Of a stretch of 37,682 nucleotides of DNA, positions 3,562 through 32,628 are shown piece after piece. Positions within the stretch are counted from its first letter, which is position 1, and each line of letters opens with the position of its first letter. The position numbers were made by a program, and so were the translations under genes. The DNA comes from Candidatus Thiovulum imperiosus (GTDB lineage: Bacteria > Campylobacterota > Campylobacteria > Campylobacterales > Thiovulaceae): assembly GCA_024281175.1 (NCBI GenBank), contig JAMJTW010000001.1, forward strand, positions 1 through 37,682. Direction: 5' to 3'. The notes under the pieces were generated by a model. That model was not told where the DNA came from, did not search any database, and was given only the letters and a program-made list of their open reading frames with translations.

Positions 3562-3654
3562 GTCATTTCAAACCTTTTTGGGTGAGAAATCTTTTATTTA
3601 GTAAAACGATAAGTTTCCAAGATTTCTCAATCACTTCGTTCATGTCGAAATGAC
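3562..3654. repeat. Palindromic repeat, copy C
   Basis: A 93 base element starting GTCATTTCAA (3562) and ending TCGAAATGAC (3645-3654). The inner arms are GAGAAATCTT (3584-3593) and AAGATTTCTC (3619-3628). Its right end matches half copy B, and its left interior (CTTTTTGGGTGAGAAATCTT) resembles the inverse of the right side of copy D. Confidence 0.75.
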
Positions 3655-3689
3655 AAGAGAGATAGAAACCTATTTGGTCACTCCCTAGC

Positions 3690-28849: not shown

Positions 28850-28876
28850 TTTATGGAAATTAGTTTTATGATATAG

Positions 28877-28912
28877 TTTCTTTAAACTAAGTAGAAACTT
28901 AATTAGGAGAAA
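28877..28912 (+). promoter_or_regulatory. Leader hairpin covering the ribosome binding site of the 28920 gene
   Basis: TTTCTTTAAACTAAG (28877-28891) can pair with CTTAATTAGGAGAAA (28898-28912) across a TAGAAA loop. The stem has 13 of 15 positions paired, two of them G-U. The 3' arm contains the AGGAGA ribosome binding site, 9 bases before the ATG. A TATGAT at 28867-28872 would place the transcript start near the hairpin base. The same structure precedes the paralogue at 29315. Confidence 0.55.
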
Positions 28913-28919
28913 AAACGAA

Positions 28920-29231
28920 ATGAGTAAAGATTACGACACATCTTTGTTTGAAATGGTAGAGGGTGAACTTAGAATAGCTCATGATAAAATTGCTGAAATA
29001 TTAAAAATCAGTCCAGCTTCTGTTAAAAAACTTATTAATAGAGATAGACATTATAACAACTTAGAAACTCTCGGTAAAATCGTATTTAAAATAGTATATT
29101 TTTTAAATGAGAAACAACTTAATTATATTATTTTCATTTTGGAAACACCCAGAGCTTTAGCAGTACTACTTGTAAAACATAAAAACTCATTTAAAGCAAT
29201 CGAGGAATTTTCTAAACAAAGTCGTAGTTGA
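28920..29231 (+). CDS. Short HTH protein, paralogue of the 29315 N-terminus
   Basis: This 103-residue protein is a close relative of the first 100 residues of the next gene: both share SLFEMVEGELRI, KIAEILK, PASVKKL and NSFKAIEEFSK. The segment HDKIAEILKISPASVKKLIN reads as a helix-turn-helix like that at the N-terminus of Rha-type and other phage antirepressors. It lacks the nuclease-like and C-terminal domains of its neighbour, so it could be a stand-alone regulator or a competitor of the longer protein. The stop is followed within 20 bases by the leader of the paralogue, so the pair looks like a tandem duplication of leader plus gene. Confidence 0.65.
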   Translation: MSKDYDTSLFEMVEGELRIAHDKIAEILKISPASVKKLINRDRHYNNLETLGKIVFKIVYFLNEKQLNYIIFILETPRALAVLLVKHKNSFKAIEEFSKQSRS

Positions 29232-29251
29232 AAATTGTTTTTATGGTAGAA

Positions 29252-29307
29252 TTTCTCCAAACCAAGTAGAAACAACGAATTTCTATTTGAAACTTAGTTT
29301 GGAGACA
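29252..29307 (+). promoter_or_regulatory. Leader hairpin covering the ribosome binding site of the 29315 gene
   Basis: TTTCTCCAAACCAAG (29252-29266) can pair with CTTAGTTTGGAGACA (29293-29307), 13 of 15 positions matching, including an uninterrupted GTTTGGAGA/TCTCCAAAC block that contains the GGAG ribosome binding site. Inside it a second stem, TAGAAA (29267-29272) with TTTCTA (29280-29285), closes a 7 base loop. Two U-G pairs in the 28877 hairpin are C-G here, and its A-A mismatch is A-U here, so pairing is kept while sequence differs. Confidence 0.6.
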
Positions 29308-29314
29308 AAACAAA

Positions 29315-30163
29315 ATGAGCCAAAATTATAACACATCTTTGTTTGAAATGGTAGAGGGTGAACTTAGAATACCTCATCACAAAATTGCTGAAATATTAAA
29401 AAACAATCCAGCTTCTGTTAAAAAACTTGTTAATACATATGGTGATGAACTAGAAACTATCGGAAAAATCATTGTTTCTAATAGTAAAATTCTTCTAACT
29501 CAAGAACAATTACATTGTCTTTTTGGAGTTATGAGATTACATATTGATTTATCAATACTATTAGCAAAACACGGAAACTCATTTAAAGCAATCGAGGAAT
29601 TTTCCAAAAAAGAGAATATTGATACAAGAAAAGGTTTTGTTTATATCGTTGAGTTTGATAATGGAAATTTGAAAGTTGGACATTCGATAAATCCTACTCA
29701 AAGATTAAGAAATTTAGAAACTCAATCTGGCAACTACATTAAAAGATACTCTACTTTGGAATTTGAAACTAAAGATAAAGGTTTGAAAGCTGAGAAAAAG
29801 CTGTTGCGAAACTTGAAAAAGTGGCGAAGAATTGGAGAATATATTGATAAAAGTTACGAGCATGTAGTAAAAACCGCAAAGAAAACTTTCAAGGTTTTGA
29901 ACTACGCAGAGAAAACTTTTCTCTTTACAAGCACTCAGCTTTGTGAATATATTTTTAAAAGCCAAAACTTTCCAGAGAAAATCAAAAATTTAATTTCTAC
30001 AAAAGATAAAAAGCCACAACCAAATAATTTAAACAAATTACTTGAGGCAGAAGGGTTGCAAATTCGCAACAATCAAAATTGGAAAGTTACAGAAAAAGGG
30101 AAAATCTTTAAATCCAAATCCTATTGGAAACTAGATGTTTTAGAAGAACTACTTATAGCATAG
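29315..30163 (+). CDS. HTH, T5orf172 (GIY-YIG-like) and antirepressor C-terminal domain fusion
   Basis: Three parts are visible in 282 residues. Residues 1-100 match the 28920 protein, with an HTH at about 20-42 (HHKIAEILKNNPASVKKLV). Residues 107-180 are a T5orf172/MUG113 domain, a GIY-YIG-like fold: GFVYIVEFDNGNLKVGHS, NPTQRLRNLE and a later RIGEYID with the conserved Glu. Residues about 195-282 resemble the C-terminal domain of phage antirepressors (LNKLLEAEGLQ, WKVTEKGK), which also ends the Bro-N protein at 31933. The family is mostly phage-borne and thought to act on DNA or on repressors. No phage structural genes are nearby, so this may be a domesticated or orphan cassette. Confidence 0.7.
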   Translation: MSQNYNTSLFEMVEGELRIPHHKIAEILKNNPASVKKLVNTYGDELETIGKIIVSNSKILLTQEQLHCLFGVMRLHIDLSILLAKHGNSFKAIEEFSKKENIDTRKGFVYIVEFDNGNLKVGHSINPTQRLRNLETQSGNYIKRYSTLEFETKDKGLKAEKKLLRNLKKWRRIGEYIDKSYEHVVKTAKKTFKVLNYAEKTFLFTSTQLCEYIFKSQNFPEKIKNLISTKDKKPQPNNLNKLLEAEGLQIRNNQNWKVTEKGKIFKSKSYWKLDVLEELLIA

Positions 30164-31836: not shown

Positions 31837-31865
31837 TTGTAAAAATCAAAATATTTTACTATAAT
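31837..31865 (+). promoter_or_regulatory. Promoter of the Bro-N gene
   Basis: TTGTAA (31837-31842) and TATAAT (31860-31865) are exactly 17 bases apart, upstream of the TTG start at 31933. The predicted leader is about 60 bases. This is the best sigma70-type promoter I can see in the accessory island. Confidence 0.6.
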
Positions 31866-31932
31866 CATTTTCAAGCAACAGAGAAGACTTGAAATCCCTT
31901 TCTCCATTGCACAACAACTAAAAGGTTATAGT

Positions 31933-32628
31933 TTGGAAATTCTACCATTCAACTACAAAAATCACAATATTAGAACTTTACTTGATGAAAAAGGCGATAT
32001 TTGGTTTGTTGCAAAAGATGTAATTACTCTTTTGCAAGACAATATCAATCCGAATGTTGGACAAGCTACTAAAGATTTGGATAGTGATGAGCTGACATCA
32101 TTTAAAATTATGTCAGGTGGTCAAACCCGAGAAATGGCTTTTATTTCAGAGTCTGGACTCTACTCTCTCATTATAAGAAGTCGAAAACAAATTGCAAAAC
32201 CTTTTCAAAGGTGGGTAACTAGAAAGGTTTTACCAAGTATCCGAAAAACAGGAAGCTACTCTCTTTCAGAACTCCCAAACTTTTCCGAAATCCTTTCCCA
32301 AAATGAAGAAGCTAAAAAACTCGTGGAACTTTTCGAGGAAACCAAACCTTTCCACCTTTTGCTTCTCCAAAAACTCCTAAAAGAGAATTCTGTTTCAAGT
32401 CTCTTCCAGCTAGACCTTTCCAATTCCTACTTTCTTCCAACAGAACTTGGAAAACTTCACGGACTTTCAGGACGGGAAACGAATTTGCTTTTGGAAAGCA
32501 AAGGCTTCCAAGTTTCCGAAAACGGAATTTGGAAACTTACAGAAAGCGGAAAAGAGTTTGGAATGGAAATTGGTGGAACTTACCACCAACTTAAATGGAA
32601 ACTAGAAACACCACTTTTTGTCGTTTAG
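31933..32628 (+). CDS. Bro-N domain antirepressor-like protein
   Basis: Residues 1-112 are a Bro-N domain: DIWFVAKDVITLLQD, TREMAFISESGLYSLIIRS and RWVTRKVLPSIRKTGSY. This is the N-terminal DNA-binding domain of phage antirepressors. The C-terminal 75 residues (FLPTELGKLHGLSGRETN, LLLESKGFQ, WKLTESGKEF) match the C-terminus of the T5orf172 protein at 29315. Start is TTG 31933 with AAAGG at good spacing. Such proteins occur in prophages and plasmids, where they switch phage repressors; here there is no integrase or structural gene. It may regulate the island or be a relic. Convergent with nifU, 26 bases away. Confidence 0.85.
   Translation: MEILPFNYKNHNIRTLLDEKGDIWFVAKDVITLLQDNINPNVGQATKDLDSDELTSFKIMSGGQTREMAFISESGLYSLIIRSRKQIAKPFQRWVTRKVLPSIRKTGSYSLSELPNFSEILSQNEEAKKLVELFEETKPFHLLLLQKLLKENSVSSLFQLDLSNSYFLPTELGKLHGLSGRETNLLLESKGFQVSENGIWKLTESGKEFGMEIGGTYHQLKWKLETPLFVV

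Follow-up and report, generated by a model that had tools for sequence, protein, structure and literature searches.

The window, a stretch of 37,682 nucleotides from "Candidatus Thiovulum imperiosus," carries on its forward strand two neighboring paralogous genes with alike leaders. The first (positions 28920 to 29231) encodes a protein of 103 amino acids made up of a Rha-like N-terminal domain only, with 58% identity to the N terminus of the product of the second. That product (29315 to 30163; 282 amino acids) combines a Rha-like N terminus with a T5orf172/GIY-YIG-like middle domain and a C-terminal piece common to antirepressors. Pfam matches above the cut-offs were to T5orf172 (PF10544; 22.0 bits, cut-off 20) and MUG113 (PF13455; 24.6 bits, cut-off 22.3), and Pfam placed neither domain in the shorter protein. 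Both proteins match the A3 profile (E = 2.0e-32 for the 103-amino-acid protein) but are themselves members of A3. Phage_pRha (PF09669) scored 14.9 bits with the longer protein, below its family cut-off of 29.9, and gave no match with the shorter one; in the wider A3 family, seven of the nine members tested match it at E ≤ 0.01.

The gene pair looks inserted, since the stretch next to groES lacks a Rha gene in four relatives. The 29315 protein found no tblastn match in the phage or plasmid collections, a protein search among the contigs of the genome collection yielded no relative, and NCBIfam and PADLOC returned nothing useful. Three T5orf172-type copies are 92 to 95% identical to each other across promoter, leader, and gene, and the window copy is 75 to 77% identical to them. 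The T5orf172-type paralogues (L024, L025, L027, and the 29315 gene) have promoter, leader, and gene in common and diverge near the C terminus, which looks like a swap of the last domain. Many places in the genome, among them a Bro-N gene at 31933 (32479 to 32562), contain the C-terminal piece found in the 29315 product (29920 to 30130). Elsewhere in the window, about 80 bp (3606 to 3684) resemble DNA that lies downstream of a paralogue on contig 10 (84.8% identical).

The leader of the 29315 gene has the fuller layout. A −10 box, TAGAAT (29247 to 29252), with a TG at 29244 to 29245, runs into the 5′ arm of a stem (29252 to 29266). Within this arm, the outer helix P1 (29252 to 29262) includes the anti-Shine-Dalgarno bases TCTCC and is followed by P1b (29263 to 29266). 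An inner stem, P2 (29267 to 29285), consists of TAGAAA (29267 to 29272), a loop (29273 to 29279), and TTTCTA (29280 to 29285). It is followed by a one-sided bulge, TTTGAAA (29286 to 29292), whose TTTG is able to pair with CAAG in place of P1b, and by the 3′ arm (29293 to 29307), with the Shine-Dalgarno sequence GGAG at 29301 to 29304. Transcription is predicted to start at an A inside the 5′ arm (29259), 7 nt past the −10 box. The leader of the 28920 gene has the −10 box TATAGT (28872 to 28877; TG at 28869 to 28870), which matches TATAAT at five of six positions and aligns with the −10 box of all 23 copies described below. Its 5′ arm (28877 to 28891) is divided into P1 (28877 to 28887) and P1b (28888 to 28891), its 3′ arm (28898 to 28912) holds AGGAG at 28905 to 28909, and the predicted start is again an A inside the 5′ arm (28884), 7 nt past the −10 box. 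Alignment with the other copies shows that the bulge and the second, 3′ half of P2 are missing from its loop (28892 to 28897).

The two alike stems, each with a 3′ arm that carries the Shine-Dalgarno sequence, had been described in the first-pass annotation, and their coordinates, the pairing of 13 of 15 positions in each, and the loops of 6 and 26 nt are all borne out. The 29252 stem (13 Watson-Crick pairs) is clearly above chance (z = −6.0; 0 of 200 shuffles as good). The 28877 stem (11 Watson-Crick and 2 G-U pairs) by itself is not (RNA z = −1.3; equaled by 21 of 200 shuffles). A single stem of this kind means little, because such stems are common by chance: in 75 of 131 background open reading frames (ORFs) of this genome (57%), a 9-nt Shine-Dalgarno segment reaches a score of 7 or more out of 9 against some upstream segment. 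The annotation had also held that pairing is kept between the two copies while sequence differs. The changes it named, U-G to C-G and A·A to A-U, are present; both are one-sided, and it takes the wider set to find changes on both sides. The reality of the feature rests on its recurrence, with 23 copies in three genomes.

These copies, gathered by a pattern search, an RNA model, and a listing of the leaders of Rha-type genes, with every string confirmed in the fetched DNA, lie in three genomes of Thiovulaceae: 11 in this genome and 6 each in another genome from the genus and in "Ca. Thiovulum stygium." The pattern search of this genome gave five further sites, one of which (C27:4592) turned out to be no copy of the element. 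When 100 genomes were scanned with stricter filters, the 97 other sampled relatives gave no convincing copy; single matches in three other genomes (E between 0.016 and 0.07) were taken as chance. The exact pattern matched only T. stygium in the genome collection and nothing in the viral contigs. Most copies precede Rha-type genes, and the downstream genes overall are Rha-type or related antirepressor genes. Three copies are exceptions: g1C15 stands before a remnant that is truncated, C31b before a gene that is interrupted, and g4_301 before a gene with a broken frame that was identified by eye as AntA/AntB-like. The element is absent from two Rha genes (L069 and L072, at G000:C35:27434 and G000:C14:77840) that have short local hairpins on the Shine-Dalgarno site (TTACCT/AGGTAA and ACCTTT/AAAGGT).

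Across the family, P1 joins the bases that follow the −10 box to the Shine-Dalgarno region. Nearly all copies have the Shine-Dalgarno sequence within the 3′ arm. P1b is CAAG/CTTG, and P2 is a nearly invariant TAGAAA/TTTCTA with a loop of 5 to 7 nt. P1b and P2 are contiguous on the 5′ side (0 nt) and separated by a bulge of 6 to 11 nt on the 3′ side only. Two-sided changes occur in all three helices, e.g., C-G to T-A in P1, CATT/AATG in P1b of C30a, and AGAGA/TCTCT (C30a) and TAGAGA/TCTCTA (g4_433) in P2. Swapping whole 3′ arms among copies reached the observed pairing in 0 of 5,000 trials for P1, 7 of 5,000 for P1b, and 0 of 5,000 for P2, on segments and an alignment set by hand in a way that favors the structure and with related copies whose counts are not independent. 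Pairs were counted on the hand alignment because MAFFT alone misregistered the outer arms in several of the 23 copies. In a MAFFT alignment of the first seven copies, the structure was not singled out by a column-shuffle control and was singled out by sliding arms. A conserved, structured leader has good support.

Common ancestry might by itself produce such a family if a multiplying cassette carried a leader that was self-complementary by chance and had no regulatory role. The near identity of the three T5orf172-type copies and the frequency of Shine-Dalgarno hairpins in the AT-rich DNA here would fit this explanation, but distant copies keep the pairing despite two-sided sequence change, and the −10 box is conserved between flanks that have diverged; we regard it as very improbable.

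A predicted promoter overlaps the stem. Each of the 23 copies has a −10 hexamer that matches TATAAT at five or six of six positions and ends at base 1 or 2 of the 5′ arm. The hexamer is the best match among six neighboring positions in each copy, and part of this agreement therefore comes from choice; the nearly gap-free register of the −10 box across copies is a stronger sign than the match itself. Pairwise identity among copies is 0.86 in the hexamer and 0.34 to 0.40 in its flanks, and the distance from the box to the conserved CAAG is 9 nt in 19 of the 23 copies. An extended −10 TG is present in 13 copies; few have a clear −35 box. Pairing at 8 or more of 9 positions together with an abutting −10 box is found in 14 of 23 copies and in 4 of 131 background ORFs. 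The duplex energy of the untranscribed upstream strand alone did not separate the Thiovulum copies from background. Under a rule that preferred purines, 22 of 23 copies have an A at the predicted start, 6 to 7 nt past the box. On this evidence, transcription would begin within the 5′ arm, immediately beyond the anti-Shine-Dalgarno bases.

The first-pass annotation proposed that RNA structure gates translation, as a thermometer, by autoregulation, or with a ligand, and named a start inside the 5′ arm as grounds for rejection. Such a start is now predicted, as every one of the 23 copies has its −10 box at the stem's 5′ edge, and it does not void the hairpin: given a start within the arm, the likely role of the hairpin is to silence read-through RNA. 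The occluding hairpin itself is upheld by its conservation, its two-sided changes, and its 23 copies, while a thermometer or ligand gained no support, as no match to Rfam (thermometers and riboswitches) was found in the window at curated score. A form of the original idea would have transcription start at or before the 5′ edge, so that every mRNA contains the full hairpin, opened by a protein, a ligand, or temperature. In its favor, several copies have a stable full stem, its inner sequence is strongly conserved, and TTTG and CTTG compete for CAAG. Against this, transcription from before the stem would require a further promoter, since the −10 box lies at the 5′ edge in all copies, and the absence of an Rfam match again counts; gating of the native mRNA seems improbable.

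Folding predictions set the two kinds of transcript apart. The median unpaired probability of the Shine-Dalgarno sequence is 0.03 when 40 nt of upstream RNA is included versus 0.35 from the predicted start (Wilcoxon P = 4e-5), and the read-through value is also below that of controls with shuffled upstream sequence (median 0.28; P = 5e-4). In the native RNA, CAAG is mostly paired by the TTTG of the bulge (median 0.99). Native accessibility is not better in four copies (C2, C31b, g1C49, and g4_301) and little better in C10a.

Upstream RNA would mostly come from a small XRE repressor-like gene. A small XRE-type ORF on the same strand ends 13 to 42 nt before the stem in 16 of 23 copies, as judged from translations read by eye. 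Ten upstream ORFs, eight of them from hairpin copies, were sent to Pfam, and six of these eight matched HTH_3, five above the cut-off. The five T5orf172-type copies, including both window copies, have no XRE gene upstream; copy 1 (the 28920 leader) was grouped with them by its leader and N terminus, and no codirectional gene was found close upstream of it.

As the best explanation, we consider it somewhat more likely than not that these leaders filter out read-through RNA on chromosomal Rha-type antirepressor genes of Thiovulaceae, in the manner of T4 gene e and I-TevI. Promoter and ribosome-binding site would share one foldback, in which the anti-Shine-Dalgarno strand follows the −10 box and precedes the transcription start. 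Transcripts of the gene's own promoter would lack the anti-Shine-Dalgarno bases because the predicted start lies past them; such RNA would retain the inner hairpin only and leave the Shine-Dalgarno sequence mostly free. RNA from upstream would contain the whole stem, and its Shine-Dalgarno sequence would be buried. The antirepressor would then be made only when its own promoter fires. The copies, their conserved pairing, the placement of the −10 box, and the XRE-type genes upstream are observed; we infer this start site, such folding in the cell, its effect on translation, and the roles of the XRE and Rha-type products as repressor and antirepressor. If true, the mechanism would explain how repressor and antirepressor can stand head to tail on one transcript without joint production, and it would be a phage T4 trick carried over to chromosomal gene families.

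The palindrome had also been proposed as a DNA operator for the HTH proteins that it precedes. The inverted repeats would then bind the upstream XRE repressor or the Rha protein over the promoter and start, and the coincidence with the Shine-Dalgarno sequence would be secondary. One half-site does occupy the interval from −10 to +1, a place for a repressor to act; XRE-type genes adjoin; and P2 (TAGAAA-N5-7-TTTCTA) is nearly invariant and operator-sized. The changes are almost all Watson-Crick on both sides: G-U pairs are scarce (four in the P1 core and none in P2) and C·A mismatches are present, unlike in a typical freely drifting RNA helix. A DNA role is also plausible because of this scarcity and the well-kept 5′ strand. 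A single center of symmetry is, however, lacking, as the one-sided bulge of 6 to 11 nt puts P1/P1b and P2 about 3 to 5 bp off center from each other. Loop and bulge lengths differ among copies, copy 1 lacks P2, almost every copy has its 3′ half-site at the Shine-Dalgarno sequence, and the XRE gene is missing at five. We regard an operator as the main rival to the read-through filter and as rather unlikely in its place, although both could hold.

Precedents for a read-through filter come from phages. In the T4 gene e, soc, and 49 leaders, the Shine-Dalgarno sequence and/or the start codon is sequestered in a helix, and the late transcripts of gene e itself lack the 5′ strand that longer upstream transcripts contain (PMC3014915). 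A sequestered ribosome-binding site likewise silences I-TevI RNA from upstream promoters (PMC3014915), and a title in the reference list of that paper points to a similar site in mobE of phage Aeh1. T4 gene e has a late promoter and temporal switching, whereas the Thiovulaceae leaders have a sigma70-type −10 box and belong to many paralogous copies on a bacterial chromosome. A GIY-YIG domain is present in I-TevI and apparently also in the 29315 protein. In contrast to I-TevI, the host gene here is not an intron and has no known homing site, and the nuclease-like domain occurs in T5orf172-type copies only. IS10/Tn10 protects itself by a foldback against outside transcription, following the same logic; transposase and element ends were not seen at the Thiovulaceae leaders. 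Phage Rha and Bro-N antirepressor genes beside XRE repressors have in common with the present genes the Rha domain and the upstream XRE-type gene, but the Thiovulaceae copies are chromosomal and multicopy.

In other Campylobacterales, the leaders of Rha genes belonging to the same subtype are unrelated in sequence. In one (L157), TATAAT is followed by TCCTAAA, and TTTAGGA lies at the Shine-Dalgarno site; in another (L153), CTTTATTTTC beside the −35 box pairs with GAAAATAAAG. As a set, the leaders from other genera lose more accessibility than background genes do (P = 0.009) and have stronger complementarity of promoter to Shine-Dalgarno sequence (promoter swap P = 0.006, or 0.009 minus a near-duplicate); a shuffle test of the same leaders was not significant (P = 0.09). 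The pattern had been noticed before testing and several tests were tried, so that a foldback pattern in these leaders is suggestive only; the background genes come from the genome of the window, not from theirs. We raise tentatively, as a possibility we do not expect to hold, that antirepressor genes after XRE genes in Campylobacterota generally have a promoter complementary to the ribosome-binding site. Unrelated leaders would have reached the same foldback, and no antirepressor could then be made from the transcript of its repressor.

An XRE gene also precedes the window's Bro-N gene (31933). The predicted accessibility for this Bro-N gene is 0.23 in read-through RNA versus 0.74 from a later start, with a fold that is not significant (z = −1.35), and the −10 region of the gene (31858 to 31866; ACTATAATC) is complementary to the Shine-Dalgarno/start region (31924 to 31932; GGTTATAGT).
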